Source: Lunularia cruciata
Lineage: Eukaryota; Streptophyta; Marchantiopsida; Lunulariales; Lunulariaceae
NCBI GenBank assembly: GCA_948567375.1
Contig: OX419760.1
Coordinates: 9,796,001-9,860,000 of the forward strand
Direction: 5' to 3'
DNA: 64,000 nt
This document shows, piece by piece, positions 1-64,000 of the stretch. Position 1 is the first letter of the stretch; every line of letters starts with the position of its first letter. The translations under genes were made by a program, and so were the position numbers. The notes under the pieces are model-generated. The model ran no database searches. It was not told where the DNA came from and worked only from the letters and a program-made list of their open reading frames with translations.

Positions 1-2
1 CT

Positions 3-2600: not shown

Positions 2601-2609
2601 TTCTTCGCA

Positions 2610-5062: not shown

Positions 5063-5219
5063 TCGAAATTGCAACGACAAAATGTCGAGCAATTTTCCTT
5101 CGCCGTTGAGGAGTCGTCTTGCAGGTGATCGGGGAAAGGGACATAGGGTTGGCCTCGGGTTAGTGTGTAAGGGAGAAGTCGAGAGAGAGAAATCGAGAGA
5201 CCGAAAGAAAGCAGAAGAG

Positions 5220-37827: not shown

Positions 37828-37873
37828 ACTTATCTGACATGAGTTTGAAAATTTAAACTCATGTCAGATAAGT
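37828..37873. repeat. Perfect 19-bp inverted repeat with 8-nt loop
   Basis: Arms 37828-37846 (acttatctgacatgagttt) and 37855-37873 are exact reverse complements around GAAAATTT. It would fold into a strong hairpin in RNA or a cruciform in DNA. Confidence 0.9.
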
Positions 37874-37950
37874 TTGAAATTTAAGAATGTGTAAATAGTG
37901 AATCTGCAGGTCCTGGACTTCATCGCCCAACCTCAACCCCAATATCCACA

Positions 37951-40784: not shown

Positions 40785-41290
40785 ATGAATACATTTTTAA
40801 TCGTCCTAAAATATATTTGCCATGACAGAGTAGATTAAAATCTCGAGAAAAAATGTTAATTTATAATTTTTTCATGTTTGTGTATCGGGTAAATATTATA
40901 ATAATAAAAATAAAAATAGATTTTAATTTTAATAAAATAATAATTTATTATGGAATTTAAATATTGTCGAATTATAAATTAAATTAAATTTTAAAATGTT
41001 ATAAAGAAAAAATATAAATTTTTTTTTTAAGATTATTAAAATAAAAATAATATATAATTATATATATATATCTAGATATATTAATTAATTTAATAAAAAT
41101 TTAAAATTAAATTGAAAAATAATTTAATAAAATATTTAAATTAAAATTTAAAAAAATAAAAAATAATTTTTAGATAAAAATAATTTTAAATAAAATTTTT
41201 TATAATTTATTTTAATTTTAATAAAAATATAATATAAAATTTTTTAATTTTCTCATATCAATCTTTAGTGAATATACTTTATTTAAACTA
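40785..41290. other. Extremely AT-rich island
   Basis: About 500 bp consisting almost only of A and T, with runs such as 'atataattatatatatatat' and many TAAAA/TTTTA strings. It has sharp borders to mid-GC DNA on both sides. No coding capacity. Confidence 0.85.
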
Positions 41291-41369
41291 TCTTTTTGAA
41301 TTTCCATTTTAATATTTTGATAATATATTTTTCTTCACTCATCTCTTTGATTTGCTCGTCTCAAAAGAA

Positions 41370-41700
41370 TGAATGTGTCCTGTGTAAACTTAAAGAATAT
41401 ACTTTTCTTGACTCATCATTATGAACTTTGAAGAATATACTTTTCTTGACTTATGAACTTTGAAAATTGTGGTTTGACCCCATTTTACCTTTTTCACTTC
41501 TCCCTTGAACGGGCTTGATGGGCCTTCCCATCCTTCATTTTCTCTAGGCGGTCGTCCTTTCCACTTTGAACTTCCCATTTCAGTGCATCGTTGCAAACGT
41601 GCAGAATATACCTTTCTTAGCCCCTCACTTTGAACTTCCCGTTTCCTGTACAAACGTGAAGAATATCCTTTTCTTAGCCCATCACTTTGAACTTGCAGCT
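41370..41700. repeat. Degenerate short tandem repeat
   Basis: Recurring 'gaatatacttttcttgac', 'cactttgaacttccc' and 'acgtgaagaatat' strings, spaced about 45-85 bp apart. The part 41510-41590 ('cttcccatccttcattttct') also occurs at 24524-24572, next to solo LTR E. Confidence 0.7.
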
Positions 41701-41879
41701 CCGAGCTCGCGGTACAATACTTTGCAACGATAACCATAAACAGCGAGATCCAGTTTCGTCAAGGAGAAAGGAAGAGACCGGGTGAAATTGAAACTGGAGG
41801 ATATTGTGATCGTTACAGAAGGGGCAGTATAAATAAAACGCAAAAATGACATTCACTGGCTCGGAATGGTTGTAATTGT

Positions 41880-42145
41880 TCTCGAATCCGAAGAGAAGCA
41901 TTCTGAAACCAATCTCAACCCTATCACGATTCTGACTATGACTGTGGAATCAGAAAGAAAGCCTTCGGAAACGGATATCATCCCTAGTACGATTATGATT
42001 GTAACTGATCACGAATAAGAAGAAAAGCCTTTTGAAACGATTATGACTGTAAGGATCACGAATCAAAAGTAGAAACCTTGTGAAACCGGGATACACCCTC
42101 CTGCGATTAGGACTGTAAATGGTCACGAATCAGATAAGAAGGGTG
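41880..42145. repeat. Degenerate ~64-bp tandem repeat, about 4.5 units
   Basis: Units start near 41881, 41944, 42009, 42056 and 42123. Each has 'cacgaatcagaagaaaagcc', 'tgaaacc' and 'cgattatgactgtaa' variants. The third unit carries an internal deletion. Sequence identity between units is roughly 70-80 percent by eye. Confidence 0.8.
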
Positions 42146-45100
42146 CGGTGCCCCTGACGTCAAGTCGAAATGAACCCTTTCACGGTTTATACCATTCTTA
42201 CCTACTCACTTGGTAAGCACCTAGATTTTTCCAGCAGCCTCAAGATCTCGTCAGGTGTACGGGTTCCCTGGTTGTGGCAAGAGCAGCTTCTCAACCTTGA
42301 CGTATTCTTCAGCGGTCACCTAATCTCCGTGGAATCCGATATGTGTAGATTCCTACAAGACACTGTCGTAATAGGTATTCAAACCTGCGACTCCACGGAA
42401 TAGAGATTTGCGGCCGCTGAAAATGTCAGTCACCTCTTAATCCTGGGCCTTCAAGCGTGAAACTCTGTTTCCTCGCTGTTTCTCAAGAAGTCGCATGAGT
42501 TCAGTGGACTGTGCTGTCAGTTCTTATACACGCTAGAAATCCAACCGGGATGCAAAGAGCATTCAATAGACAATCCACCAAAAATCTCCTATTTGAACCA
42601 AGAAATCATGAACCTCGTCGCTGCACTTCACTAAGACTCAGATCTCATGCAAACAGGGAAGATAAGAAATGTGATATTATAGCATAAATCAGGGGCCTAG
42701 AGGTTACACATTCCACGAATTAGGGCATTAGTAATGACCCAAGAATCCATGTCTCTGTTCATAGGCTTAGATGCGCCACTACCGCACTACAGAATTATGA
42801 TGACCATGGCCATGGCAGATATCACGCCAAGCCTCACTAGAAGGGCTTGAATTTTTCTTTATGTTAATGGTTGAACTTCTAGCACTACACGATTCCTCCG
42901 CGTTCACATAGTACAGGAGACGTCTATGTAGACACTCAGAGTCTTGTCTATGCACTCCATGCCATCTCAACGTGTGACAGTTATCAAGAAAGCTCCGGTT
43001 GGACCTATGAACTGATCAGTTTTCTATGTACTCGATAAACGAATTGTATACACGTTCATGTGCACAATGAGCCGTCATCCTTACCATCTACTGGAGTACG
43101 CTCGAAGACCTTACATTTGCTTCCACAGCCAGTGCCTGATCACCGCAAGGCATTGATGCAACGAATCTCATCTTTCTGCTTCTGCGAATACTGTTTTCTG
43201 CTGTCGTGCAAATTCTCCAAGATCGTAAAAATGCTTTCTCTGTGTAGCTAGTAGAGACACATTAAAGTTCCTTCCGCCCTGCCTCAACTGAAATAATCTT
43301 CTAGACCACATATACAGAGCTCTCTTGCATCGAGAGGACCCGGATTGTACCACATTCTCAGTGCCTGCGCTCGATAAATTGCTAGTAATGGCAACATTCC
43401 ATGTGCATGCATAGGCCACTATTTCGACCAGCACCATTTCTCTTGCTAGAGGCTCCCCAACCTTACGAGCGGAGGAGTGCGTGCAATCCTGGTAAGGTTG
43501 AAGAGCCTCCGGCAGGGCAAGTGATTCTGGCTTACTCAACTGCAGCAGCTAACCTTCGCCCAAGAAGTAGTAGTGGAAGCCTTGGGCAGGTATCGCAGCC
43601 GGAGATGTGACCGCCAGCGCTAAGCTTGAAATTCGGTCGGTGACTAACCTAAACGATAGGGTCCACCCGTCGAATACTCCATTGGCTTAAAACCAGCATT
43701 CTCGAAAAAAAGGTTAGAGAACAGGGACGGTATCTTGTGGTATATACCGGTATCTCCTGGGACATGCGGAAAAATCTCTTCAACCTGCCACTAATTATAG
43801 ATATTAGCCCATATCATGTTTGATAATCACGAGAGCCGCTCGAAACCGCCTATCTGTCGGGACAACTTTCGTAGTATCTTGTAGAATCTGACCCAGAATC
43901 TGTCCTATTACCTTCTATGGTTGGGCAGATTCTTTTGCATGCGTGCTGAGATGGCTTTTTCGACTAGATAACGGATCATTCCCTTGGTTTATGGTCAAAG
44001 TAAGTGCTAGTTGAGTTTGCAAACTAGCAGAACTCAAGATTGGGCTCCTGCGTCACATTTCGCCTCGGCTTAATTCAGCTTTAATTCACATTGCTTTACC
44101 CTGATACTCGCTAAACCCTTGAAGTGCGAAAGCACGAGACGGATTGTGTTGCTTAAGTTGCGTAAGCTAGATACTGCATGGATTCAAACTAAATGACAAA
44201 CTCGGTACTCGGTAGGCTGAGAAGTAAGAATCTCTTCCTCAGAAAGAACATCTGGGATTTACGAAGTACAGTACTCTTACTGTCTGCTGGTCACGACGAG
44301 AAGAGAAAATTTCGCAAGGAAGCAAGACAATAGGTCAAATAGACAGCGACCAAGAGAATTTTCTACTAAATATCAGGAGGACTCAGATGCAACGCTACCG
44401 ACTGGCCTTTCAATAGGTTTGCGACATTTATTACTGTCCTTGGTGCCATTGCTAATTCGCTGGGCGAATACCGCAAGTGACTTGTCAGACACACCAACAA
44501 CGTGTTGAGATTCAACGTTCACAAGAACCATTCCTGCGCTTTACAGTCTGTGTTCTTTCCAGAGAAGCGAGTGTACTAACATTGGCTACCAGGCGCAAGA
44601 AACGAGAATCGGCAAGTCTATCATTACATACTAGTCAGGTTGATTCAACAACGTCAGAGGCACGGAATACATCCTGTCAGAAACCAACCCGATTGTTCAG
44701 TGTGTGCTCTAACGTCTAGCTATGTCCTATGCTCTTTGACTTGAAGACTCTTGTATCATGAACAGCTTCACGGGACAGAATGTCATCTCTGCCTCATTCA
44801 CTTTAATGAAGTTGACCCAGTGGACAGGCTTGTGTAGTCCCTTCAACATCCTGGAAGCCTTGTCCGTTGAAGTCACCTTTGACGCTTGGTCCTTGCGGTA
44901 TGCAATATATTTGGACAGGGGTGATCTCTCTCGTAAGCATGTCGGGTTTCATGAATAAAAACTTCACTACACAATTAGAGAGTTGTACTGTGTTTGTCAA
45001 TTATAATACCCTGAAAATGACTTCTTCGTCAAAGTTCTTATGGTGTTCAGGATCAATTAGGCTTACAAATCGAATCTCACTTCCCTGGATGAGTCTAAAT

Positions 45101-48100
45101 TTCATACCTGAATTTATATATCCGAGTATGACATTTGTAAGCCCAAGTCATCGAGCTATAGGGCAGCGTATTTCGAGGGTATGTCTGGGCTAGACTAGCA
45201 CGACTGATGTGGAGTCCTCGCTTTGTTCCTCTAAGTCAATGAACTTCATCTGTCTAGAACTGTACCGATCTTTAATTGATAGATCATGACAAACGCGGGG
45301 TTCTCACTTCTGGGTGCAAATTACTCCGAGATTCAAAACTGTAGCTCAGAGTATTTGAAATGTCCTAGACATGTTATCTTCTGTACGGATAGCAACACTC
45401 TCTATTGATTTTAAACAACTTTATTACATGGTTCGCAGAAGAGCATTTCTCTACCTACCTTTGTGAGGATGGGCTATGACTTTGAAGATTTAACTAAACC
45501 TTAACTTATTCAGATGGGTAAGATACTGATATCGTCGTGATGAACTTCACATCTTAAGAGAAGTTTAAAAGATGAAGTGAAGTTTATAATATTAGGAAGT
45601 ACTGACAAAACGTGCGGTGTATGTGGTATCTAGATCAAGGGGCAAATCGTATCAATATAACATCGTTTTGTACAGCAGCATCCCGCATTTGAATCATGCT
45701 TCCTGGCAAAGGAGATGAACTATTGCTTTATCGAGGAGAAGACTTCCACAACTTCAAACGTGGTCGGGGAAGTTTTGGAATCATCAGTAGTAGTAGACTG
45801 AGTACAAAAATTGGAGAGAACCTCAATACTTTCTAATATTTTCTATTCCTTCTCAAGCAAATTAATCTCACTTTTAGAAAATATTAGTTTGTAAACACGG
45901 AAGCATCAGATTCTAATGGCACCGACTGAAAGCAAGATTCGTAGATGTTAACGCTGAATAAGAGCTTCTAGAACATTGAACAGCCAGATTTGTTTTCGGT
46001 AGCTGCTGTGTATGAACTGAAATACCAGAGTATGAGAGACTAGCTGTGTAGTTTCTACCAGTCATACTAGATCACTTGTAGCTCTCAAATTTCTAAACTT
46101 AAGTTTCCAGAATAAAAGTTCATCCCATGCCCAGTTGATGGTTCCCCACAGAGGTAGTTATGTATCAGTTGAACGATTGTCTCGAAATGGGGAACGAAAA
46201 CGGTTCTCTCATCCTCTTTGAACCATGATCCAAATGTACTGTCTGTAGTACACTGAGGATCCTGTATGTAAACCTGACCTTCCTATCCGTCAATTACAGT
46301 TGGTCATGATGCCTCGTTTCGGTAGACTTTGGATGCGGTAAGTTTTCTTAGATCCTTTTCCTGACTGTTTTGATGAGGGACAATTTGTCGTCTTTGGAAT
46401 TTACGATGATTGCATCATTGTGAGGAATGAAGTTCTGAATGAAATTGTACAGAAAGGGTTTCTCTAGTCTTGTGATTTATTACCCGGTCCGGTACAACCA
46501 ACGACGTGATCAATAGGTATGAACGTATTGATCACACGTCGCTGACAACTCGCCAAACGACATGCTTTCCGATATGAGATATCCATCAATCGTTACTGTA
46601 AATCAGCAAGAGCCAATGGACTCGTTATTATCCAACCAAATTTAGTAGGTATTACATTAGTTTCCAATTTGCCTGCATTTTCTTCCATCGTCACTGGAAA
46701 GATAGAAATTGTCTTACAGTAGTGAATGTTTTGTCACTTTAACCATGTTTCCAGCGTCTTGAAACCTAGGAGTCCCTAGAAGGAGAATATCAACCCATGG
46801 CTTCCGTATAATTACTAGACTAAGTCCTGTACTAGCAAGCAGCTGATGTATAGCAGATGGCAACGGGGTCGCATGTTCGATACCTGAAAGAGGGCTAGAA
46901 CAGAGAATATTAAACGAGTTTTCCAGTATTAGAACTCGTAGTATGAAATTTTTTGGAAATACTATACAACGGGGCATCTATAGATCTAAATATTCCAGAT
47001 TTGACATGAGTGATTCAGTTCTACTTCAAATTTTGTGACTGAATATTTTGCTATACATAACTGATACGGAAGTATATATTTCCTCCTTGTTCAGCACAAA
47101 TGCAAACAGACTTACGGACTGAGTAGACGTAATGATGCTGTGTACATGTGAGGTACTAATACTCTCGCTACATATGAACTCTTGTTAGCCATGCACTGAA
47201 CGCAGATTGCGCTTTACATACATGCAGTTGACCTTTCTGCAACGAAACGAGTCATCCGAGGTTGTTCAAATGTCTTAGTTGAAATATATTTTGGCAGCAT
47301 AATCATTCCCACTAGATTCAACATGTTCTCCAGCGATTGTGATGCTGTCGACATCATGAAGTAAAGTGGATTAGCCTACTATAACATCGTATCGGTGATA
47401 TTTTTCTGCTTAGAAGGTTTTGAGAATCCGTGATGTCAGAAAGATCCCAATGCACTGACAAGGCAGCCATACTTACTACGTGGAATCTACCTTGCCAAAC
47501 ATAAATTATCTATATAATTGCACTCACTGTTCAAGAAGGTCCAAAATAGAGTATCTCGTGGTTAAGACATCGTGTAAACTTTCTTGGATCGTCTTAACAC
47601 CTGGACTGGCTCGTGGATGGCATGTGGCTATTTCTTAGGATATTGTTCGTTACAAGAGTAGGGGTCCTCAGGAGTATATTTAGTCTGCAGAATGTCTACT
47701 TTATCCATGCAATAACTCTTGCAGCACCGGCTTGTTCCTGTCCCTCGCCTCCTTGTGAATTATGGTTGAAATAAGTACTTTGCTGGCATCTAATGCCCAT
47801 CATCAGCTTATCTATTGCTTGATTCAGATCTGGCTATCTTGACAAACAGGAACTCAAATTACCACCTCACTTGCAACGGACGATAACATCTTCCAGACTC
47901 TCTAAATGGGTCTTTCCTTATTGATCAAATGTGAATTCTAAGATAAGTTTTACCTCGTTTTCGCAATCGAATCTTTGAGAGTAGGATCAGATTCATGTTC
48001 CTAGCCTCTCCACATGACTCTTTTTCTGTGTTCACCGAACTACGGTAAATAGACGGCGGTCTAAAGGATATCGACAGAATTTACAGTCATGAAAAATTAT

Positions 48101-50489: not shown

Positions 50490-51760
50490 CCTCCTTCTCT
50501 AGAACTTCATCTTCTCATCTTGGGTTATACTCTTTTGCCATCTCTAGCTTTTCTTCTTCCTCCTCTGGTACCGGCTTCATCTCCATGCCATCTTCACTCT
50601 CGCTGCTTGCTTCACCACTCTGCAACGTGAGTTCTGGTTCTTCCTCCTTCTCCAAGTCTTCTGACTTGCACTTGGCTTCCTCTTGATTCTTCACCTGACA
50701 ACATGATTACCACCAGGTCTTTCCTCAAGTTTACCTTCCTGGTCTTCTGAGGTCTTGTCATCGCTACTTCTTCTTCTTCTTCTCGTCAACTCCTCTTCTT
50801 TGACTTTGGAGTATTCACCTTCAACTGCACACTTTGCCCCATCTGCACGTAGTACTCATTGCTGCTTCTAATCTGCAAAATGTACTGCTGCTCCTCCGCA
50901 TCAACTTCTTTTCTTAAGTTGGGATGGAAGTGTGACATCATCTTGTGTCTCTATGTTGCATTCAGCAAATTCAATCCCAAGTAGAAGTGTGTTGCAAATG
51001 GCACAATGTAGTGTGGAGGCGACTTGTCCCGCAAGTTCCACACCATTTGTCTAGTACGCTGATGGAAGCTAAAATTATATAACAAGAAAGATTATAAATT
51101 ATAGCAAGAATATCTTTCTCTCAACTTTCATGTGCTCTCTACTTCTTGGTCTCTCACAAATTAAACCCGTGACTCAGCCTGGAATTCTAACCTCCTAAAG
51201 ACAACTACTCAGAGGCATAGGATATCTCTTCAACATGTTAAAGCTTCCGCAACAAAGTCTCAACCTTATATTATTTTGACGTGCGGTCATTCTTTAGTTG
51301 ATCCTTAGTTGAAACTCATGCCAATTGCATGATTTATTTCTATCACTCTCAATTTTATCCTTCATATGAAGTAGTTATTTTTGCTGAATGTACCTTCTTG
51401 ATTGGTATGGCCTGAGGAAAACTTTTCAAGGTTTCTTCAGATTGGGTTGATCATTCCAGTGCAAAATATCCTTACATCAAGTATACCACCCTTCCAATCT
51501 GATCTGAGTCCTTCATCTTCTAACATGAAGTTGACCTTCTCAAGGTTTAGGGTTTAGGGTCATGCTGCAAAATATCCTTACATCAAGTATACCACCCTTC
51601 CAATCTGATCTGAGTCCTTCATCTTCTAACATGAATTTGACCTTCTCAAGGTTTAGGGTTTAGGGTCATGCTGCTCTTCTTGCTTTCATTTGGCTTCAAT
51701 TTCCCTTCAACAATACACTTCTTCTCTCAAAACAAAAAAAATATAAATTTGTGTACCACA
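50490..51760 (-). repeat. LTR fragment G of family 1
   Basis: On the minus strand it starts TGTGGTACACAAATTTATA at 51760 and matches the first ~400 bp of the LTR to about 51340. It is then replaced by ~270 bp of unrelated DNA (51068-51340) and resumes with the middle of the LTR reading frame (51067-50490: 'TRQMVWNLRDKSPPHYIVPF', 'MSHFHPNLRKE'). The left side is cut off by the copia relic. It is inserted in element H, whose frame resumes at 51761. Confidence 0.82.
51461..51672. repeat. 106-bp tandem duplication with telomere-like TTTAGGG
   Basis: Copies 51461-51566 and 51567-51672, near-identical, starting GCAAAATATCCTTACATC and ending 'ggtttagggtttagggtcat'. Each copy holds two adjacent TTTAGGG units, the plant telomere repeat. 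It lies in the U3-like part of LTR fragment G; the other LTR copies show no such duplication. Confidence 0.92.
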
Positions 51761-52830
51761 ACTAGCATGGCCATAACTTAGAGGATATCAGATTTGGGTG
51801 TTGAGGCTGCCACCTCTTGTGCTAGTGATAGAGACATCTTGGACTTCATGTGTGGAGTAGCACAGGTGGATGCATTTACCATAGTGACTAGGAGTGAAAT
51901 ATGTGCTCCAAAGCCTAGAGGAGTATTAGTGGAGTTGGAACCACAAAGAGTAAAGGTTGGTACACATGTCAAACTCCCCCAATCTTTAACACTCTTTGAG
52001 GGACTAGATGACATCCATAGCTCCTAGATGTCTTAGTGCAAGTGCGGTAGGTGGTGGTGGAGTGCATGTTAGACGAGATCCTAGTCAGCCACCTACTACT
52101 ACACAAATTGAGTCTAGCATGACATTGGGGACGGCTCAGATGATTATGCGCTTTTCTTTGTTTTCAACTAGTGATATGTTTACCTTGGAAGTTGACCCAA
52201 CTCCAATGTTTTGGTTGGCTGCCATAGTTTGTGAGAGTAGGGATGATGGGGTTCCCACTTCTAGAGCAAAGGAGGTTGAAAGTGTAGTTGACTTGGTTGA
52301 GAAGCATAGGATTCACTATCAAAGCAACCAATGGTTTTTGGCAAGCTACAATAGCTTGGTTGGAAGAGTTACTAACTAGATTTGCCTATGAGCTAGCTTG
52401 GTTCACACCTAGAGTTGTCTTATTGAATAACCAAAGGGGGATTTTCTATTTGGTGGGACTTTAAGGGAAGGTCTATACCCACAAAGGGTCTTATTAGAAT
52501 TTTGTGTGTAGCCTCTTATGTGGGGGAAAGGCTACAATTATTGGTTTGGAGCTATGGAAGACCAATGTGGAGAGGTGTCTATTTCAGATCCAAACATCTC
52601 TAGGGGTGTTTCTATACAATACATAACATGTGAAGCTCATTGTCCAAATTCAGCCTAGTCATCCAATTGATAGCTCTATGGTGAGAGCTTAGCACATTAC
52701 AACAATAACAGAGTCATATAGTGTGCTAGTTGGTGGAGCAATGTTATACCCCATGGGTTTTAATTCTGACTATTGGGAGGAGACAACCTCCTATAGACCA
52801 AGTTGGCAGTTAGGTAAGGGTCAAGTATGT
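51761..52830 (+). pseudogene. Element H linker and protease relic
   Basis: Open pieces 51794-52027 and 52008-52379 match the Pol/Gag linker of element I ('MFTLEVDPTPMFWLAAIVCESRD' equals I's 'MFTLGVDPAPVFWLAATLCESRD' with few changes; each quoted in part). The retropepsin active-site codons at about 52497-52505 have changed and no longer give Asp-Ser-Gly. The end of the protease, 'SYSVLVGGAMLYPMGF', is recognisable near 52715-52760. Confidence 0.78.
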
Positions 52831-53189
52831 TGCCTACCAATATGCTTAGTAATGATAGTCTTGGCTCACTATTGTCAAGGACCATGACATCAATTTTAGC
52901 TTTCAATATTTTAATTACTTGGTTTGGGACTTATTCGAGTGGAACACCCATGCAAAGGATACTCCAATGCCTGAGAAGATCACTTGGATTGGGAGTACAA
53001 GTGAGATTGTTCCATCCACCTTGGATGTTCCATTGCGGAGTTCTAAGGAGGCATCCCAAGAGCATGCGGATCAGTTGGTACAACGGGCTCGGAGTGGATC
53101 CTTTGTACCACTACAAGACCAATGTAAGGATGAGTATCCAAAATCTATTCCCTTGTCACCTTTGGATACCACACTCATTGCTTGGTAGT

Positions 53190-54170
53190 ATCCAATAGAT
53201 GGAGTTTGTCTATTGGAGTTGTTTGGTGGGATTAGCATTGGACTAGTTGTGGTATTATAGATAGGTATATGAGTATAGAGGTACTTGTGTGTGAAGAGAG
53301 ATGAGATTGCTAGGCGAGTCTCTTTACATCATGTGGCACACTTGGCCTATTGGTATCTTGAGTTATTACTAATGTTAGTAGTTAGGGGTAACCATAAGAC
53401 CCTCATAGTAAAGATTTCCTTGATGGGGCATTGGATTTGGAGAGACATAGTCATATTCATTTGGTGATTTTTGGATAGCCATGTCAAGGACATACCCATA
53501 CTGGCCAAGGTCAAGGTCTTTAAGATCCCCATTCAAGTGTGTTTTGAGAGCTAATACATATACTATGACATCTCTAAGTTCATCAATCCATTTCTCTAGC
53601 CTACATTTTGGAGAACATTTGTTTGATAGGTGATTCTTGTACTTGAGTGGTGGTGAGTACACATCAGGTCCATTCTTGGATGGGACCTTCCATGTTGTTA
53701 GATGCAACCAGAGTGAGATCATAGGCTTATTGTCTTGGCCTTTGGTAGATGAATCTCTAACCTATAATGGGATTCAACAACTAGACCACCTTATTGTTAA
53801 TGATATCTTGGATGATGGGCGCCAATCCTAGACAATGATAGTGGATGAAAGGTCACTTATGGTATTGGTGAACCTTGTTGGACAGCCTACAACTGCTCTA
53901 CCCACACTTTTGAGTTTCCCAAGCTCCCATGCTTTTTGAGAGGGAAGTCTTGGACTTGTTTGGGACTCATAATTACAATAGTTGGTGGAGTCTAGCACTA
54001 ATAAGAGGGAGTAGGTGATGGGTTTTTGAACCAATATTATTGCTATTACAGCAAATGTTAGAGGCATCTAAGCATTAGATGTTAGGTTAGCTATGGACTT
54101 GAATTTTTTTTGACTTGGATTATGAGCCTTGGCTTTGCAAAGCAGCATAGGATGTGCTTGGTAGGTATCA
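53190..54170 (+). pseudogene. Element H DNA cytosine-5 methyltransferase relic
   Basis: Homologous to the methyltransferase of element I throughout. Motif I 'CLLELFGGIS' is at about 53211-53240; 'RRVSLHHVAHLAYW' follows near 53305-53350. The catalytic Pro-Cys-Gln-Gly codons survive near 53478-53489 but are preceded by a TAG in place of Trp. The ENV-motif codons read 'LENI' near 53608. Motif X remnants lie at about 53940-54130. Many stops and frameshifts mean it cannot be active. That two copies share this domain shows it belongs to the family and is not a chance insertion. Confidence 0.8.
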
Positions 54171-54273
54171 AAACTTGAACACTTGTGTGCTCTATGCCTA
54201 TCAAGACAACTTGACCTATAGCTAGTTCATCATTTATGTGGTATGGATTGTAGACAACAACTAACAATGGGGA

Positions 54274-55633
54274 CGTCACACCATTTGTAGTGCCGCATCT
54301 AGATGCTCGGACACTGGAGTTTTAGTGATAGTAGTAAGAGTTATTTCAGTAGTTTCTCAATGACTACTTTCCGACGGTTAGATTTTGTGTTTGGGGTACT
54401 GACTTCATGGTGGGGCCCACCATCACTTTGCACCATTTGCACCATCGAGTGTGCCGTCAGCGGGACTGTTAGGGTTTCAGAGCTAGCTCAAGTCCAGGGG
54501 GTTTAGTTTTGAAGTGAGCTCCAAAGAGCTCACTTCTTTGATGTTGAGCCTTCGAGTTCCTGGCTATGGTGGACAAAGGCCGGCGAGCGTCACCTGGATT
54601 CTCTATGCTTGAGTGGGTGTGGCTTGACTGTAATCAGTGCCCGGTTGTTGGCAATTTATAGAGTGACAGATCAAGTACTGATCTGAGTTGAGTTGAGTTG
54701 AGAATTGTAAGCAATCTGATTACATCAAATAAGTGAAGTCAGGGGGAAATCGGGTGCAAGAACTGTGAGTGTTGGTGGTATCTCCAAGCTCAGTGGATCG
54801 TTGGTAGCTCGATTCAAGTTTAGTGTTTCCCTAGTGTGTAGAAGCTCAATTGATTGATGCAGATTCGGCAGTTAGGCGGACGGTGTGCAGAAGCACTGGC
54901 CAAATTTTAAGCAAAGAAGGAGCAAATTTTGAGCCATGGTTGTGATTTTGAGCTCAAGAGGTGACGGCAGGACCAATTTGCTGCAAGTTGAGCTCAGAAA
55001 GTCAAATTGAAGGTGGAGTTGGGAAGCTTTTCTCATGAAATTGTGATTTGGAAAAACCTGTTTTGTCAATTTAGCTTGAGTGGAAAGTTAGTGGGGGATT
55101 TGGCAGACATCCAACTTTAGGGTTTACATCAGATTTTGGTTGGGATTTACGTCAAATTTTGGCCAGAATTGGAGGAGTTTTTGCTGTTTGGCCAGATTTG
55201 GAGGAGTTTCACTTGTTTGGAGAACTTTCACAGATTTGGAGAAGTTTTGCCAATTTTAGAGGAGGTTCAAAGAGGCCTCATTTGGCTGAATTTGAGGCAT
55301 TGAGGCATAGGGCTATGGGCTATGAGAGGCTACGAAGGCCTAGAAGGGCCAGCAAGCCAGCTTGCTGGCATGAGGCTAGCTAGTTTAGAGTAGATCTTGG
55401 TCATTGGTTGGCAAAATCTACCTTTCTTGCTAGATTGTGCGTAACAGGGTTTGACCCTTAAATCTCTTGTTCCTAGACTGGTGCTCTAGCCAACTGGTCC
55501 ACCCTCACTTGTTGTCATAGTGATTGTGCCATTGTTAACTATACACATGTAGCTTTGGCTAGGAGAGGCAATTTGATCCCATTCTTGGTGATCCTGGTAG
55601 CTTAGGACTTAGATACAAACTTCTCTTATGTCA
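54274..55633 (+). repeat. 5' LTR of element I (shared with the end of H; first ~115 bp missing)
   Basis: 54274-54620 matches the 3' LTR of I (63653-64000) at roughly 94 percent by eye. The start (63539-63652 equivalent) is absent because of the H deletion. The right end is taken as CA at 55632-55633, a few bases before the primer-binding site. Full length would be about 1.47 kb. A tRNA-like stretch lies at 55440-55512 on the minus strand. A 74-codon open frame (55159-55383) is not conserved evidence of coding. Confidence 0.78.
55440..55512 (-). other. tRNA-like sequence (A- and B-box-like) inside the LTR
   Basis: On the minus strand, 'gaccagttggctagagcacc' resembles a tRNA D-arm/A box (TAGCTCAGTTGGTAGAGCA type) and 'gggtcaaaccc' resembles a T-arm/B box (GGTTCGAATCC type) at normal spacing. 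The acceptor stem does not pair and the anticodon arm is poor, so it is a tRNA relic or SINE-head-like sequence, not a working tRNA gene. Confidence 0.45.
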
Positions 55634-55641
55634 ATGGGAAA

Positions 55642-55659
55642 TGGTGGCAGAGTCAGTCC
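55642..55659 (+). promoter_or_regulatory. Probable primer-binding site of element I
   Basis: TGGTGGCAGAGTCAGTCC resembles TGGTATCAGAGCCAGG, the site complementary to plant initiator tRNA-Met (about 12 of 16 positions). It lies 8 nt after the LTR end, as expected for minus-strand priming. Confidence 0.6.
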
Positions 55660-56039: not shown

Positions 56040-57400
56040 ATGACGGAGTTCTTTGGAAATTTTAGAGGAGTTGGCCCTACAATACGTAGTGGGTTTACTC
56101 GGAGTGGTGCTCGGTATCAGCCTGTATCTCAGGTCCTAGTGAGGGAGGAGATTGACTCTGAGTTGGAGTTTGACACAGGAGCTGATTCAGTTGAGAGTGC
56201 ACTAGGTGTGTCCGCACCGTTGTTGTGGGACATGGATGAGATTTATAGGGCCTCCAAAGGCCCTAGGTGTTACTCTGGTATAGTGGGTACCATTGAGTTG
56301 GATGACTTCATCCAAGAGTTTGATAGTTGGTGTGATCTACAGCAGATGTGGAACCCGACTTTGTTCACACCCTTCATGGCATGGAAGAGGTTGTTTCAGC
56401 ACTTGGAAGGTCCATCAATGGATGACTACCATGAGTTCAAGAGAGCTCATTTGGAGGAGATTGAGTTATGGAGACTGTATTGGTCTCCACACTATGTCTC
56501 CACACTATGTCTCCATCACTTCAAGCTCGGTGGCCAGGAGTAGATTGACTGTACCCACGAGTTCTAGCTCGAGTAGTGATGGTGGAGCTAGTGGAGGTGC
56601 ACTAGCTGGAGATAGTGCTACTACGAGTGGAGGTACCGCTGTAGGAGGTGGTGTGGTACCGGGGTTTAACCCCATGGTGGAGTTCTTTCTATGTTTGAGG
56701 CAGAACTACCAGGGAGTGCGGATTGACAAGCTGAGGAGCTTGCAGGAGTTCCAGCAAAAGGCTGGAGAGAGCCTACGTGAGGCATACACTTGCATGAGGC
56801 GGCTGATCAGTTTCACTCAGGGAGTTACTGAGACCCAGGCAGTCTAGTTTGGTATGGGATACTGGACAAGGAGTTGCGACGTAGAGTTCGTGATGCTACG
56901 TTGTTGCAAGCTACTTCGCCCACTTTGGTAATAGTCTTTGGTTTGGCTGAGCATATTGAGCTCAACATGGTGGAGGAGAGAGTGGTGATATTTGGATTTG
57001 GTAGGGAGACCTCATCCACGGTTGTGACTTCTTTTAGAGTGCAACAGAGTGCACCACGCCCAATTGGCTTTTGAGGACAGGGTGGACAGCCCAGATCCTA
57101 TTGAGCGAGTGGAGGGCCTAGTGGAGTTAGACCCTTACCCTCATTTTCAAGTCAGCAACAGCCAGTGAGTGGTGGTGTTGCTTGTTGGACTTGTGGTGGA
57201 CCGCACCATAGGAGGGAGTGTACTCAGGGCAGTGGACCTGATATCTCTGGTGCATCACAGCCAACACAAAGGCAGTGTGAGCATTGCCATAGATTTGGTC
57301 ACACTAGTGACCGGTGTTTTGACCTACACCCAGAGTTACAGAATGGTAGGGCTGCTATGGCTGGTAGTCGAGGAGCTCCAGTTCATGGAGGACGAGGTGG
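56040..57400 (+). pseudogene. Element I gag with two zinc knuckles
   Basis: ATG 56040 (MTEFFGNFRGVGP) is the likely start; an in-frame ATG at 56007 precedes it. The N-terminal part is acidic with 'ELDDFIQEFDSWCDLQQMW'. A 13-bp duplication (tctccacactatg twice, 56486-56511) throws the frame out. The gag core 'REAYTCMRRLISFTQGV' continues in the next frame to 56847, and the original frame resumes at about 56850-56874. Zinc knuckles: CWTCGGPHHRREC (57183-57221, CX2CX3HX4C) and CEHCHRFGHTSDRC (57276-57317, CX2CX4HX4C). It forms the particle and binds RNA. Confidence 0.85.
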
Positions 57401-58560
57401 TGGAGGTGGTGGTAGAGGACCTACACCTAGTAGGGGTGCAGTACCTGCCCTTACTTCTGACACAACTATGGCTACTCGGATTGAGCAGTTGGAGCAGAGA
57501 TTAACTAGTATGGCTATTGCTCAGAGGAGATCAAATTCGGGTGTTGAGGCTTCCACCTCATATGTTGGTGATAGAGATGCTTTGGACTTCATGTGCAGAG
57601 CAACACAGATGGATGCATCTACAGCAATCACTAGGAGTGCAGTACGTGCTCCTGAGCCTAGAGGAGCATCCATGGAGTTGGACCCACAGAGAGGAGAGGT
57701 TGGGAGACAGGCCAGACTTCCCCAATCTTTCATGCTATCTGAGGCATTACAAACAACATCCATGGTTCCTAGACGTCCTAGTGTAGGTGTGGTAGGTGGT
57801 GATGGAATACATGATGGACTACCTGCTAGTCAGCCACCTGCTACTACAGAGACTGAGTCTAGCATGATGTTGGGAGCGGCTCAGCTTATTATGCGGCGTC
57901 CTTTGTTTTTGGCCAGTGATATGTTTACATTGGGAGTTGACCCAGCCCCAGTATTCTGGTTGGCTGCCACATTGTGTGAGAGTAGGGATGGTGCAGTTCC
58001 TACTACTAGAGCACAGGTGGTTGGTAGTGGAGCTGACTTGGTTGAGGAGCATGGGATCCGTTCAGCAACTAGTGGTTTATGGCAGGCAGCAGCGGCTAGA
58101 CTAGAGGAGTTGCCAGCTAGACCGGCCTTTGAGAGAGCACGGTTCACACCTGGTGTTGTCCTATTGGATAACCAGAGGGGGATTTTTTGTTTGGTGGGAC
58201 CTTCAAGGAAGGTCTATACACCACAGAGAGTCTTGTTAGACTCTGGTGCGTAGCCTCTTATGTTGGGGAAGGCTGCAATTGTCGGTCTGGAGTTACGGAA
58301 GACCGATATGGAGAGGTGTCCATTTCAGATCTAGACATCTCTAGGTGGTAGTTTGATACCGTACATCACACGTGGAGAGCTTGTTGTCTAGGTTCAGCTT
58401 GGTCATCCGACCGATAGCTTGGTGGTGAGAGCTCAGGCTATTGCGACGATAGCTGAGTCATATGATGTGCTAGTTGGGGGAGCAATGTTATACTCCATGG
58501 GTTTCAGCATTGACCATTGGGAGGAGACAACCTCTTATAGACCTGGTTGGTAGTCTTGTG
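57401..58560 (+). pseudogene. Element I linker and retropepsin-type protease
   Basis: A Gly-rich stretch and a short helical piece 'RIEQLEQRLTSMAIAQRR' follow the zinc knuckles. A ~200-residue linker then runs to 'RVLLDSGA' (active-site Asp-Ser-Gly, about 58233-58250). A TAG at 58251-58253 follows immediately. The protease fold continues in the same frame ('PLMLGKAAIVGLELRKTD', 'SYDVLVGGAMLYSMGF' about 58459-58506) with further TAGs at Gln-like positions. The Gag-Pro linker is long for Ty3/gypsy and is conserved in copy H, so it may have a function I cannot name. Confidence 0.82.
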
Positions 58561-58839
58561 AGGGACGGGTATGTCGCCTACCAGTACACTTCAGTAGTGG
58601 CAGTCTTGGCTCATTACAGTCCAGGACCATGGCAACATCAGTTTTAGCTTTTAGTGGTGCAGTTACTTGGCCTAGTGACTTGTTGGAGGGGAACGCCCAT
58701 GCAGAGAATACTCCAGTACCAGAAGAGATCACTTGGCTTTGGAGAACGAGTGGGATTGTTCCATCCACCGTGGATGTTCCATTGTGGAGTTTAGAGGAGG
58801 CATTGCAGCAATATGCAGATCAGTTGGTGCAGTAGGCTT

Positions 58840-59940
58840 GGAGTGGAGCCTTCGTACCATCAGGAGATGAGTGTGAGGATGAGCCTCCAGAGGCAATTGC
58901 TTTGACACCTCTGGATACCACACTCATTGCTTGGCAGTATCTAGTAGAGGAGATATGCTTATTGGAGTTGTTTGGTGGGATCAGCACCAGACTAGCTACG
59001 GTGTTACAAGCGGGTATACGAATACAGAGGTACTTGTATGTAGAGAGAGATAAGACTGCTAGGCGAGTCTCTCTACATCATGTGGCACACTTGGCCTATC
59101 AGTATCCGGAGTTATTACCGATGTCAACAATCGGAGGTTACCAGAAGGCCCTACCAGGAGACATTTCCTTACTAGCGGCGCATGATCTAGAGAGACATGG
59201 GCCTATTCACTTGGTGTTTTCTAGATGGCCATGTCAAGGACATACACATGCAGGTAGAGGATTGGGTCTTCAAGATCCTCGTTCTGGTGTGTTTTGGGAG
59301 ATGTTACGGATACTACGACATCTCCAGGTTCATCAGTCTGTTTCTCCAGCTTACCTTCTGGAGAACGTTCCTTTGTTGGGTGATTCTCGCACCAGAGTGG
59401 TGGCAAGTACACATCAGGTCCATTCTTGGATGGGACCTGCTATATTGTTAGATGCAGCCAGAGTGGGATCACGGGCTCATCATCTTCATCTTTGGTGGAT
59501 GAACCTCTTACCCAGAGAGGTTCTACAGTGCGCTTATGATGGGATTCAACAACTTGACCACATCCTTGTTGATGATATCTTGGATGCTGGGCGTCAGTCT
59601 CAGAAAGTGGTAGTGGTTGATAGGTCACCTATGGCAATGGTGAACCTAGTTGGACAGCCTAGAGCCGCATTTCCCACACTCATGAGTTTCCCAAGCTCTC
59701 ATGCTTTTTGAGAGGAAGGACATGGACTTGTTTGGGACTCACAGTTACAACAGTTGGTGGAGCCCAATGCTGATGAGAGAGAGAGCGGGCGATGGGTTTT
59801 TGCACCGGTATTACCGCTGTTCTAGCAGTGTCAAAGGCCTTCAGGTATCAAGTGTTAGGTCAGGCTATGGACCTGAACTATTTGACCTAGATTGTGAGCC
59901 TTGGCTTTGCAGAGCAGTGTAGGATGTGCTTGATAGGCAT
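58840..59940 (+). pseudogene. Element I DNA (cytosine-5) methyltransferase domain
   Basis: The open piece 58902-59711 contains, in order: motif I 'LLELFGGIST' (SAM binding, residues 20-29); acidic motif 'YVERDKTARR' (46-55); motif IV 'RWPCQGHTHAGRG' with catalytic Cys111 at 59232-59234; 'GLQDPRSGVFWEMLRILRHL' (motif V region); motif VI 'YLLENVP' (151-157); motif VIII-like 'RAHHLHLWWMNLLP'; and 'AFPTLMSFPSSHAF' (motif IX-like). After TGA 59709 the C-terminus continues; a GA-repeat slippage near 59778-59790 shifts the frame. Motif X appears as 'AMGFCTGIT' and 'QVLGQAMDLNYLT' (to about 59890). The PCQ/ENV set and 'GLxDPRS' resemble the DNMT3/DRM side of the family. It would transfer methyl groups from SAM to cytosine C5. 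It lies between protease and RT, inside pol. Confidence 0.88.
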
Positions 59941-60329
59941 CACCACTCAGACACTTGTGAGCCCTGTGCCTATCGAGACAATTCAGGCACATGCTGGGGG
60001 CGATGGACAAAGTGGACATGGTATTCTTGGGACACATCCAGTAGCTACTAGGGAGAGTGGGCTACTTGGAGTCCATCCAGGTGAGCGTGGGCTACTTGGA
60101 TTACACCCTTGATCCACATGGGATGCAGCTAGAGGACGTGTGGAGCTTGCAGCTAGAGTGGAGGGAGTTTTTCACACAGAGGTTGGGACCTCTAGTGGTT
60201 GGGAGTATGACACTATTGCTCCCAAGGGCCCATTGTAGCAGCCAATCAGTACATCTTCCACTCCTACTACAGTTACAAAGGATACTTGGGAGCTAGATCT
60301 TGGACCCAAGCTTACTAGAGAGGAAAGAC
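59941..60329 (+). other. Linker between methyltransferase and RT of element I
   Basis: Contains short repeats ('gtgggctacttgga' twice, 60057-60104). It translates without a recognisable domain. Stops are present in all frames. It probably encoded a flexible polyprotein linker. Confidence 0.5.
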
Positions 60330-61190
60330 GGAGGGTTTGGAGGTTGTTGAGGAGTCACACAAGTTGTTTTGCCTTTAGTATGAAGGATTCTGAAGGGACC
60401 TAGTATACGGATTGAGCTGACTAGCAACACACCAGTTTTCCGACGTCCTTATCAATATAGTGATATGGAGAGGACATTGATTCAAAGCCAGAGTAGTGAC
60501 CTTTTTGAGGCTGGTTTGGTGGAGATTTCACATGGAGAGTATGCATCAGCGATAGTGATGCTAGCCAAGAAGGATATGCATGGCAACTATACAGATAGGC
60601 GGATGTGTGGAGATTACCGTCCTATCAATTGACATACCAAGGCTGATCGGTATGCCATGCCTACACCGGAGGATATTTTTGATGCGATTGGGCATGCAAA
60701 GATCTTCAGTACTTTGGGTCTTTGAGCGGGATATCATCAGTTGCCAATCAGGGAGGAGGAGAAGTCCAAGACAACATTTTGGGCTATTGATCCTCACGGC
60801 AAGGATGTGTTATATCAATGGATGTTCTTACCATTTGGGTTGAAGAACGCTCCTGCTGAGTTCCAAAGGGTCATGGATAGGATCCTAATTGGACTGGATT
60901 TTACCCGGTGCTATATTGATGACATTTTGGTTTATAGCACTACTGTGGAGGAGCATGAGAGACAGTTGTTGGAGGTGTTTGAGAGGTTGAGATCTCATGG
61001 ACTCAAACTACATCCTGGGAAGTGTAGGTTCTTCCACGAGCAGGTTGAGTATTTGGGTCACACTATCTACCACGGAGGACTTGGTGTTCAGCAAACCAAG
61101 GTGGAGGCTATTGCACGTATTCCTTGGCCTACGGATGTGAGCAGAGTGCGAGCATTCCTTGGGTTGGCAAACTTCTATCGCCACTATGTT
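60330..61190 (+). pseudogene. Element I reverse transcriptase
   Basis: The pre-RT part 'RREERRRVWRLLRSH'-like region starts near 60318. RT motifs: 'SHGEYASAIVMLAKKD' (about 60528-60575), 'MCGDYRPIN' then TGA (60630-60632), 'IFSTLGL' then TGA (about 60722), 'FLPFGLKNAPAEFQRVMD' (about 60828-60880), catalytic YIDD (60912-60923), 'HGLKLHPGKCRFF' and 'VRAFLGLANFYRHYVRRF'. The two TGAs sit at conserved Arg positions and fit CGA-to-TGA change. The fold is otherwise complete and the catalytic box intact. Confidence 0.93.
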
Positions 61191-61720
61191 AGAAGATTTA
61201 GTGCCATTACCAAGGCCTTGACAAAGCTGACCAAGCTTACACAGGAGTGGTGTTGGGGAGATGAGCGGGAGAGAGCTTTTGTAGAGCTCAAGGAGAGGTT
61301 GACATCTGCTCCTATTTTGAGGAGACCAATCAAGGGACGACTATTTCAGGTTCACACTGATTGGAGTATGTTGGGGCTTGGAGCGGTGCTCACCCAACAT
61401 GATGATGAGGATAAGGAGTTTGTGGTGGCCTATGCTAGTTGCTCCAACAATTCAGCGGAGGCAAAGTATAGTTCATATGAGGGAGAGTGATTGGAAGCAG
61501 TTTGGGCAGTAGCACATTTCCAATGTTACCTATTTGGTAACCCCTTCACTCCCATCACTGATCATCAGCCGCTGAAGTGGTTGATGGAGTCCGACAAGCT
61601 TTCAAGGAAGCTTGCACGATGGGCTCTGATTTTACAAGAGTATGATTTCACGGTTGTTCACGGACCTGGAGTGGTGAAACGTGATGCAGATGGGTTGATT
61701 AGAAACTCATGTCCCAGCCA
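61191..61720 (+). pseudogene. Element I RNase H
   Basis: 'FQVHTDWSMLGLGAVL' gives the first Asp (about 61355). The Glu motif 'YSSYEGE' (about 61470) is followed by TGA 61488-61490 in place of an expected residue. 'PITDHQPLKWLM' gives the third acidic residue (about 61556) and 'VVKRDADGLIRN' the fourth (about 61680). All D-E-D-D positions are identifiable. In frame with RT and integrase. Confidence 0.9.
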
Positions 61721-63170
61721 ACAGGATCAGACCGGAGCACGTTGGCATGGTGAGACAGATGAGGAGATGGTGCTAGGTTGGCATGCATCGGCCTTTCTGT
61801 ATATATTTGCAAAGGCTTTGGTGGTATCTCTCTCAGCGCATACAGGAGGAGTTATTGAGGTCATAGATCCAGAGAGCAAAGATATGGGTACAGTTCAGCA
61901 AGACATTCATGATGATGTCTTGGTGATGGACTATCTTTGCACAAGTGTTGTGGGTGGCACAATTGGGGCCAAGGAGAGAGACCGTGTTCTTCAGCAAGCC
62001 AGACGGTTCAGATTGGAGGGTAGACACCTTTTGCGTGTATGGGAGAATGGTAGAGTGCAAGTAGTACCACTTCCATCACAGAGACCACAGTTGGTCCGTC
62101 ATGCTCATGAGGAGCTAGGACATTTTGGAGTAAAGCGTACGTATAGCTTACTCCAAAGTCATTATTGGTGGCACGGTATGCAGACCAAGGTACAGCAGTT
62201 TGTTGCCAGTTGTATGGTTTGTGACCGAGTTAGAGCATCATTTAATGCTCCTATGCCACAGTTACACCCATTACCTATCATTGGATTGGGTTACTGTTGG
62301 AGTTTGGACTTTGGGGGACCTTTACCACTGATTGTGAGACATCATTGGTATGTTTTGGTGATGGTGGAGCACTTCTCCAAGTGGATTGAGTTGGTGGCAC
62401 TTCCTGAAAAGTCTAGTGAAGGGACAACTTACTTGTTCCTAGATCGAGTTCTTAGTCATTTTGGTGCACCAGCTGAGGTTTTGACTGATCAGGGTACAGA
62501 GTTCTTGGGGGAGTTTTAGGTCTTGTGTGACAAGGCTTTGATTGATCATCATACTACATCCTGAGATCACCCTGAGGCAGATGGCTTAGCAGAGAGAGTG
62601 GTTCAGACGGTGAAGAGAGGATTGCAAAAGTATGGTTTGCAGAGAGGCCACTTGGGAGATTGGGATCTCTAATTACCTTGGTTGGCCATGGGCTATCGGT
62701 TCAGCCGGCAAGCCTCCTTAGCATCCTTCTCTCCATACTTTCTACTCTATGGACAAGATCTAGATTTACCTGTAGCCATTCGTCAAGATGCTCTTGTAGT
62801 TTTGGACTTGGATGGCCCTGATGTATGGATGAGCACATGTTCTCAGCGGGTAGAGATCTTTCGGAGAGTGATGCCGATGGCCTTTGAGAACTTGGCGATT
62901 GCTCAGCATAGAGATACTTTACGCTATGCTACCATTTGAGGAGAAGGTTATAGACCCTCGATCTATCGATTTCATCCATGCGACTATGTATATCTACAGC
63001 AGATAGCACTGACAACACTTGATGTTTCTATAGGCCATACTATCTTGAGAGTGCGTGAGGTTTTGCCATCTGGAGTCCTTGTGTTAGAAGGACGTGATGG
63101 TGTTGTTTGGAAGGATCATGTGCGCAATTGTGCGCCATGCCACCTTCCAAACATTGATGGTACTATGGAC
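61721..63170 (+). pseudogene. Element I integrase
   Basis: After a ~110-residue spacer the HHCC domain reads 'HAHEELGHFGVKRTY' and 'CMVCDRVRASFN' (about 62098-62240). Core: 'WSLDFGGPLPL' (first Asp about 62310), 'VLTDQGTEF' (second Asp about 62487), 'DGLAERVVQTVKRGL' with Glu (about 62578-62622). Stops at TAG 62517-62519, TGA 62562-62564, TAA near 62670 and TGA 62938-62940. The C-terminal domain has 'DYVYLQQIALTTLDVS' and 'GVLVLEGRDGVVWKDHVRNCAPCHLP' (quoted in part), ending near 63155. No chromodomain; a PHD finger follows. Confidence 0.92.
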
Positions 63171-63203
63171 CCAAGCTTGGCACTTGTACGTGCAGGCTTG
63201 AGG

Positions 63204-63363
63204 TGTATGTTATGTGGATGTTATGTGTTATGTTATATGGGCTCTTCTGGTGGAGCTGCTACTGTGTTAGTGTGTGATAGCTATTTTGAGAGGATGGCAT
63301 ATGGCATGTATGACTCTTCCTCTCATGGTGGTTCCTCACGGACAGTGGTTATGTCCTTGATGT
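63204..63363 (+). pseudogene. PHD finger at the C-terminus of element I pol, frameshifted
   Basis: Frame 3 gives 'CMLCG' (Cys at 63204 and 63213) and 'AATVLVCDSY' (Cys 63273), where the next Cys is Tyr. After a frameshift near 63280-63289 the other frame gives 'RGWHMACMTLP' (His 63298, Cys 63307) and 'GQWLCP' (Cys 63352), then TGA and Cys 63361. Spacing matches the Cys4-His-Cys3 PHD pattern with the typical GWH..C and W.CP.C ends; seven of eight zinc ligands are visible. PHD fingers read histone H3 tails. Here it would sit behind the integrase, where other Ty3/gypsy elements carry chromodomains. Confidence 0.75.
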
Positions 63364-63520
63364 ACTTGACCTATAGCTAGTTCATTCTTTATATGGTATA
63401 GATTGCAGATAGGCGACTAACGATAAGGCTCCATAGCACCCAGCTTCCTGATCTTTGCCTATTAGAGGGTATACCATATACTTAGAGTAGATGGCTATCT
63501 GGAGTTAGAGGGACCTAACC
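63364..63520 (+). other. 3' untranslated part of element I
   Basis: Non-coding stretch between the PHD finger and the polypurine tract. Its first 60 bp are kept in element H (54212-54270), which helps define the H deletion. Confidence 0.6.
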
Positions 63521-63538
63521 GCCAGCTAGGGGGGCGAT
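63521..63538 (+). promoter_or_regulatory. Polypurine tract of element I
   Basis: GCCAGCTAGGGGGGCGAT lies directly before TGTGGCACTTTAG at 63539. The G-run is the probable plus-strand primer. Confidence 0.7.
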
Positions 63539-64000
63539 TGTGGCACTTTAGAGTCTATGTATGACTTATGTGTTAGTTGTGCTTTTATAGTGTATGATGT
63601 TGACAACAATGTATGTTGTGTAGTGATGTATATACGCATGACAGCTGTCACACCATTTGTAGTGCCGCATCTAGATGCTCAGACATTGGAGTTCCAGTGA
63701 TAGTAGTTAGAGTTATTTCAACAGTTTCTCAATGACTACTTTCCAATGGTTAGATTTTGTGTTTGGGGTACTGACTTCACGATGGGGCCCACCGTCACTT
63801 TGTGAGTGTGTTGTCGAGTGTGCTGTCAGCGGGACCGTTAGGGTTTCAGAGCTAGCTCAAGTCCAGGGGGTATAGTTTTGAAGTGAGCTCCAGAGAGCTC
63901 ACTTCTTTGATGTTGAGCCTTTGAGTTCCTAGCTATGGTGGACAAAGGGCGGCAAGCGTCACCTGGATTCTTTATGCTTGAGTGGGTGTGGCTTGACTGT
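63539..64000 (+). repeat. 3' LTR of element I, running off the window
   Basis: Starts TGTGGCACTTTAGAGTC. From 63653 on it matches 54274-54620 (5' LTR). The right end and target-site duplication lie outside the window. Confidence 0.85.

Follow-up and report, generated by a model that had tools for sequence, protein, structure and literature searches.

A 64,000-nucleotide stretch of the genome of the liverwort Lunularia cruciata (contig OX419760.1, positions 9,796,001 to 9,860,000; referred to at its full length as the window and numbered from its first letter) contains a Ty3/gypsy retrotransposon, element I, with a domain resembling DNA cytosine-5 methyltransferases (DNMTs) between its protease and its reverse transcriptase (RT). 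Element I starts near 54275, lies on the forward strand and continues beyond the window end. Behind a decayed gag (56040–57350), recognised from its open reading frames (ORFs) and by tblastn with the Gag of L001, a relative described below, we located a retropepsin-type protease (58130–58520, with LLDSGA at 58233–58250, in a region spanned by a tblastn match to ORF1 of L001), the DNMT domain, a UAG codon followed by CAG and CCA, in frame with the beginning of the RT ORF (60236–60244), the RT (60281–61100; PF00078, E = 4.2e-24; 60% identity to ORF2 of L001), RNase H (61190–61650; PF17919 and PF17917), an integrase with H2C2 zinc-binding domain, DDE core and C-terminal part (61900–63180; PF17921, E = 7.8e-19; PF00665, E = 2.2e-9; tblastn with ORF2 of L001) and, at the integrase C-terminus, a PHD finger (63224–63363) that is decayed by one frameshift and one stop and was recovered as a two-piece tblastn match to the PHD finger of L001. 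Zinc-knuckle-like C-H-C stretches in gag, at about 57180–57330, were found by eye and have no Pfam match. The order protease-RT-RNase H-integrase and the DDE integrase with its H2C2 domain bear out the Ty3/gypsy identity proposed in an earlier reading of this DNA, the first-pass annotation.

The DNMT domain is covered for the most part by a forward-strand ORF of 291 aa (58836–59711), which matches PF00145 with E = 1.4e-6 (28.4 bits, cut-off 22) and has DNMT3A as its best match in the PDB (3.4e-5); a match to the NCBIfam dcm model (6e-6) scored 26 bits, the model's own cut-off being far higher at 100.65. Motif I (LELFGG, 58962–58979), motif IV (W-PCQG, 59226–59240) and motif VI (LENVP, 59358–59372) are followed in the same frame by the motif VIII region (SRAH..LWWMNL) and motif IX, and motif X (ERERAMGF...VLGQAMDLN) is found in a different frame at about 59780–59923. 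Thus motifs I, IV, VI, VIII, IX and X stand in linear order between protease and RT, where the first-pass annotation had also read C5-methyltransferase motifs in sequence; the domain is where that annotation put it (58840–59940), its span being given more exactly, from PF00145, the PDB match and tblastn, as about 58950–59923 with motif X past the frameshift. Both motif VIII arginines are replaced by H in the window copy; among relatives, R occupies these positions in 137 of 156 and 138 of 151 sequences. Because in-frame stops at 58833 and 59709 and one frameshift break the reading frame, the window DNMT is a dead, decayed pseudogene. A chance match is excluded, since 106 database homologues were found at E ≤ 0.001 and, when the window DNMT was used as a query against its own genome, all 134 scored places (the window included) matched over the full 291 residues with 89–100% identity. 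These comparisons confirm the predicted cytosine-5 methyltransferase domain between protease and RT of a Ty3/gypsy element as real.

The genome searched was the 565.8 Mb assembly that contains the window. The 134 places were picked by score and are therefore biased to good copies; the 12,594 candidates of the initial pass should not be taken as a copy number. At 10 of the 134, the match contains no stop and lies in an open frame of 1400 aa or more. A separate search with PF00145 gave 123 scored matches among 2161 candidates, host genes included, from which 22 regions of 10 kb were fetched (rows 9–30 of the ranking, which favours well-kept copies; rows 1–8 are shorter loci and were left out of the copy counts). 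The element was present in 21 of these regions, L019 being the exception. DNMT, RT, RNase H, integrase and PHD finger were each found in every one of the 21 copies, Gag in 18 and protease in 20; the order Gag-protease-DNMT-RT-RNase H-integrase-PHD finger was the same throughout, with all seven domains in 18. Absence of the domain from other family members, which the first-pass annotation had named as the outcome that would speak against it, was accordingly not what we saw. The copies are spread over eight contigs with the same junctions each time, W-PCQG and LENV are kept in all of them, and they share 93–98% pairwise identity (median 96.7) with one another and 91.6–93.9% with element I. Exons at L005, L006, L007 and L008 in the same genome belong to host genes of DNMT3-like, DRM and CMT/MET1 type, classed by eye from their motifs.

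The relative L001 (CADCWO010000201.1) is a 9285-base contig binned with a metagenome-assembled genome (MAG) of a desert-crust cyanobacterium; its content is that of a retroelement. The two ends of the contig share a 127-nt overlap. Gag, protease and DNMT are encoded in ORF1, and RT, RNase H, integrase and PHD finger in ORF2. L001 was the only confirmed match in a scan of genome contigs, and scans of IMG/VR for relatives confirmed none. Another retroelement-type sequence, P0048, is filed under a bacterial MAG (Candidatus Obscuribacterales); both it and L001 are probably eukaryote contamination of bacterial MAGs. Related DNMTs occur in Marchantia polymorpha and M. paleacea (Marchantia being a laboratory plant), Riccia sorocarpa, Calypogeia fissa, Sphagnum troendelagicum and S. 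tenellum, and a Closterium protein combines Gag knuckles, protease and a partial DNMT. Parts of the domain order can be read in single proteins: protease runs into DNMT in P0097, P0104 and P0127, DNMT runs into RT in P0093 (Riccia) and P0130 (Marchantia), and P0131 and P0135 likewise show parts of it.

In 20 of the 21 genome copies, a UAG codon in the RT frame follows the DNMT at the corresponding position. The consensus UAG-CAR-YYA, which we take to be a leaky stop context of the tobacco mosaic virus type, is present in the window itself and in the DNMT-RT spacer of 19 copies, with the L033 instance falling outside the RT frame in the alignment; a single letter separates L016 and L018 from it. 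In L001, a single UAG followed by CAA UCA separates ORF1 from ORF2 in the same frame. Since DNMT identity between the L001 lineage and the genome copies is 51–53% and their synonymous sites are nearly saturated, the UAG site is probably maintained by selection. Database ORF1 proteins (P0108–P0113) also stop behind the DNMT, with tails that resemble that of L001; in P0131, P0135 and P0153 the DNMT continues into RT without a stop. As judged from these reading frames, the DNMT is part of the Gag-protease ORF, which precedes the conserved UAG, and not of the RT ORF, so that it should be made and packed together with Gag. The first-pass annotation, which had described the domain as lying inside pol, was right about its position between protease and RT; it had overlooked both the UAG and the PHD finger.

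The PHD finger ends ORF2 of L001 (PF00628, E = 4.3e-10). A search with the integrase end of L001 gave 295 proteins at E ≤ 1e-20, and the best 120 of these were analysed. Because 118 of them carry PF00628 (the exceptions are P0179 and P0247), Volvox and Haematococcus proteins included, the PHD finger is old in this Ty3/gypsy clade. Among the same best 120 of 295, the DNMT precedes RT in 4 proteins, stands elsewhere or in a protein cut before RT in 45, and is not seen in 71, many of which start at RT, so that their elements may still carry one. In a second architecture, the DNMT is placed after RNase H and ahead of the integrase, and a PHD finger is present (P0137, P0142, P0184, P0194, P0202 and others); in P0137, RNase H occupies 398–502 and the DNMT 592–918, with H2C2 at 1074. 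Volvox P0188 fits the second architecture; it is cut before RT and lacks the catalytic Cys. Glu replaces Pro before the catalytic Cys (EC for PC) in 31 of 165 retrotransposon DNMTs (P0131, P0135, P0137, P0184, P0217 and others). The EC carriers P0131, P0135 and P0139 lie outside the RNase H-DNMT-integrase architecture and the other EC carriers lie inside it or are cut before RT; some members of the second architecture retain PC.

In a DNMT tree of 56 rows, the second architecture forms one clade (100/100) and the window copy groups with Calypogeia, Marchantia and unnamed rows (95/86). A branch of the 60-row integrase tree (100/91) likewise separates the second architecture from the other rows. 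The simplest reading of these trees would be one capture of the DNMT followed by one relocation. With its liverwort and moss relatives, the element fits the suggestion of the first-pass annotation that it is a land-plant version or relative of the algal elements. In a tree of 26 rows, 19 retrotransposon DNMTs form one group (95/99) apart from host DNMT3, DRM, CMT/MET1-type and phage enzymes; the outgroups (host exons of this genome, a DNMT3A fragment and three phage enzymes) are short or few. The comparison with other DNMT classes proposed at first pass yields a coherent group.

To which class the domain is closest was also read from profiles. A 29-sequence profile scored DNMT3A at 60 bits and DNMT3B at 53 in the PDB, ahead of 4onj (34.6; named only DNA methyltransferase, presumably a DRM), DRM2 and HaeIII (27 each), HhaI (26.5) and DNMT2 (24), and no DNMT1 or CMT was among the 54 sequences it matched at E ≤ 0.01. 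The motif order is not rearranged, unlike that of DRM. With a home-made profile, phage dcm enzymes scored 57–67 bits, a DNMT3A fragment 74 and a host DNMT3 exon 48, values obtained on sequences of different lengths, and the forks in question are weak. We conclude that DNMT3-like is the best label for the domain, descent from DNMT3 not being proven. A phage origin was considered and set aside: 389 phage records match, all below 60% identity, and the tree gives no firm placement. A structure model of the relative P0001 has a mean predicted local distance difference test score (pLDDT) of 74.8 and a predicted template modelling score (pTM) of 0.81.

Conservation was assessed on two time scales. 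When L001 was compared with four of the 21 copies (L013, L015, L025 and L031), the proportion of nonsynonymous differences (pN) was 0.33–0.35 for the DNMT, 0.44–0.45 for the protease, 0.23–0.25 for RT, 0.24–0.27 for RNase H and 0.20–0.23 for integrase; the synonymous proportion (pS) of 0.73–0.74 for the DNMT and 0.82–0.85 for the protease is saturated, so that the ratios set no more than a lower bound on constraint. On the longer time scale, the DNMT has thus retained its sequence more closely than the protease, and RT more closely than either. Among the genome copies themselves, leaving out those with incomplete matches, the pooled ratio of nonsynonymous to synonymous rates (dN/dS) was 0.45 for the DNMT (16 copies), 0.32 for RT (17), 0.35 for RNase H (20) and 0.53 for integrase (12).

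The remaining parts of element I were placed as follows. A weak primer-binding-site-like stretch of the initiator-Met tRNA type (55642–55654, forward strand) fits such a site in 10 of 13 letters, and other primers score 8–10 elsewhere in the stretch. It sets the inferred right end of the 5′ long terminal repeat (LTR; 54275–55630, forward strand), whose positions 54275–54631 pair with 63647–64000 in the 3′ LTR at 91% identity (Kimura two-parameter distance 0.076 over 352 sites), corresponding to an age of about 4–19 million years under assumed rates of 1e-8 to 2e-9. A polypurine tract (63528–63536, forward strand) was read directly and set by eye beside L001 at about 6938–6947. Because this tract and L001 place the start of the 3′ LTR (63539–64000, forward strand) at about 63539, the 5′ LTR would have lost its first ~110 nt; both the start and the loss were set by eye. 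Of the terminal features of element I, an LTR pair and a polypurine tract were found; the 5′ LTR appears truncated, the 3′ LTR is cut off by the window end and the primer site is weak.

An older copy on the forward strand (51760–54268) comprises the end of gag, protease and DNMT, lacks RT to integrase and runs into the LTR of element I, which it adjoins directly (51760–54275). Its segment 51760–54209 is 77.6% identical to 57503–59981, and 54209–54268 matches 63364–63424, a jump from behind the DNMT to the 3′ end of the element. It is possible that the older copy is a deletion derivative sharing an LTR with element I. Elsewhere in the window, positions 1–7700 hold a further, seemingly young Ty3/gypsy-type element, which has long open frames and is only slightly depleted in CpG (observed/expected ratio 0.83). 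The CpG ratio is 0.75–0.98 in four 2.5 kb bins at about 37500–47500, compared with 0.1–0.3 in most preceding bins, and a 205-base tandem pair lies within this stretch at 37951–38360; direct repeats spaced 80 and 240 bases occur at 11526–12465. Scans of the window for tRNAs and Rfam families gave no match, and among 20 scanned window ORFs (18 outside element I) only transposon-type domains, and no host genes, passed the cut-offs.

The architecture, the kept active site, the conserved UAG, the PHD finger and the abundance of copies can be read directly from the sequences. We favour, with moderate confidence, the interpretation that an old green-plant Ty3/gypsy lineage captured and kept a DNMT3-like enzyme, which would be produced at Gag level, packed and used to methylate the element's own cDNA, with the PHD finger biasing integration. 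Most ribosomes would stop at the UAG and yield Gag-protease-DNMT, and a few would read through and add RT, integrase and PHD finger. Made in Gag-like amounts, the DNMT would enter the virus-like particle and methylate the new double-stranded cDNA there or on nuclear arrival, probably at CG, so that the copy integrates already marked by methylation at a site to which the PHD finger, by reading histone tails, may have steered it. The benefit to the element could be that its later expression, and the harm it does, are dampened, or that it resembles methylated host DNA.

Several observations weigh against this interpretation. At least one stop falls within the DNMT stretch in 19 of the 21 copies. 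The dN/dS of the DNMT in its true frame (0.45) is not below one of the two shifted frames (0.42 and 0.79) and is above that of RT, and its differences are spread nearly evenly over codon positions (0.34, 0.30, 0.36), so that the recent copies appear to be without clear constraint on the DNMT; between the two window copies, the ratio is 0.45 compared with 0.34 in a shifted frame. The CpG depletion of the element (0.35, 0.105) is not special, as bins of the window span 0.09–0.98. The trees leave a DNMT3 origin and a bacterial or phage dcm origin side by side. Enzyme activity, readthrough, packaging and methylation of the element are predictions from sequence.

The DNMT might instead act in trans on host chromatin, as a de novo CG methylase that reshapes the methylome or counters non-CG silencing, with cDNA methylation secondary. 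This would suit a family in which 134 or more copies were scored and many of them have long open frames, and accidental host effects have been raised in the accessible text of PMC5890265. We nevertheless think it unlikely, since fusion behind Gag-protease and upstream of a stop points to the particle, and since Klebsormidium nitens, which has such elements, has a methylome similar to those of land plants (PMC5890265). That the domain has ceased to be catalytic and now binds nucleic acid or fills a structural role in the polyprotein seems more improbable still: the EC variant in 31 of 165 sequences and the loss of Cys in P0188 and P0195 would fit it, but the catalytic Cys is kept in 162 of 164 aligned sequences, the Glu of ENV in 150 of 159 and the Phe of the S-adenosylmethionine (AdoMet) motif in 139 of 142, in addition to the intact W-PCQG of all 21 copies and the deep conservation relative to L001. 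A recent local capture of a host DNMT3, for which the DNMT3-like exons L005 and L008 could have been a source, or a mis-assembly joining host gene to transposon, is very improbable and refuted as far as sampling goes, as the junctions recur in 21 copies on eight contigs and in other species and the retrotransposon DNMTs group apart from the host and phage enzymes.

The kind of element described here is known from KnitGypsy-Dnmt3 of Klebsormidium nitens (de Mendoza et al. 2018, PMC5890265; this and the papers below are cited from their accessible portions). That work found retrotransposon DNMTs to methylate CG de novo and suggested that elements methylate their own cDNA, so that what the first-pass annotation stated of charophyte Ty3/gypsy elements and CG methylation is borne out; the dinoflagellate elements it gave as copia type are LINE and DIRS in the same paper. 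KnitGypsy-Dnmt3 and the Lunularia element are both LTR Gypsy elements with a DNMT3-like domain in the polyprotein and catalytic residues kept, with purifying selection reported for the former (PMC5890265). They differ in that KnitGypsy-Dnmt3 is from a charophyte, its DNMT is called part of the Pol ORF and its repeats are DIRS-like, whereas the Lunularia element is from a land plant, has ordinary LTRs and a PHD finger, and encodes its DNMT in the Gag-protease ORF, ahead of a UAG. The two were set against each other by description; no K. nitens names were among the relatives listed (for the integrase-end set, the best 120 of 295). On KnitGypsy-Dnmt3, the main text of PMC5890265 contains no mention of PHD, chromodomain, protease or retropepsin, nor does it contain the words Marchantia, Physcomitrella, moss, Sphagnum or liverwort. 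SymbioDIRS-Dnmt3 and SymbioLINE-Dnmt of Symbiodinium are likewise retrotransposons with a cytosine-5 methyltransferase and many copies, but they are a DIRS element (with tyrosine recombinase) and a LINE, compared with an LTR element with DDE integrase here (PMC5890265). PMC12344493 refers to streptophyte and dinoflagellate elements of the LTR Copia and DIRS types that contain DNMT3, PMC6453930 has host DNMT3 as its subject, and PMC6338049 describes transposon methylases as not present in land plants such as tracheophytes.

The second-architecture Ty3/gypsy elements (P0137, P0184, P0194 and others) share with the Lunularia family an integrase with PHD finger and a related DNMT, which stands behind RNase H and not before RT and often has EC for PC in the catalytic motif. 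Chromoviruses are Ty3/gypsy elements with an integrase chromodomain; they too carry a chromatin-reading domain behind the integrase, and the elements described here have a PHD finger in place of the chromodomain, plus a DNMT. In the open-licence literature accessible to us, with subscription papers, preprints and Repbase outside that scope, we found no report of such elements in land plants, of the PHD finger or of the UAG. New here are the land-plant family, the recoding site and the PHD finger.

The Lunularia family is a genuine land-plant branch, widespread and abundant, of a retrotransposon type already known to carry a DNMT, and its UAG and PHD finger have a direct bearing on its mode of action. 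The recurrence of its gene order in liverworts matters because such elements were known from algae and land plants had been said to lack them. A more tentative idea, which we regard as doubtful, is that Gag-level DNMT supplied through a leaky UAG, pre-methylation of cDNA and steering by the PHD finger let the family multiply until it became a main cause of host genome growth; if so, the Ty3/gypsy bursts published as enlarging the 580 Mb L. cruciata genome (PMC9985172, in whose accessible text a methyltransferase is not mentioned) would be these elements, at least in part. Transposons are usually the victims of DNA methylation, and here a transposon carries the enzyme. The presence of the family in liverworts and mosses makes the question of 2018, what an element gains from methylating DNA, open to experiment, and the UAG site and the PHD finger would offer separate handles on dosage, packaging and targeting.
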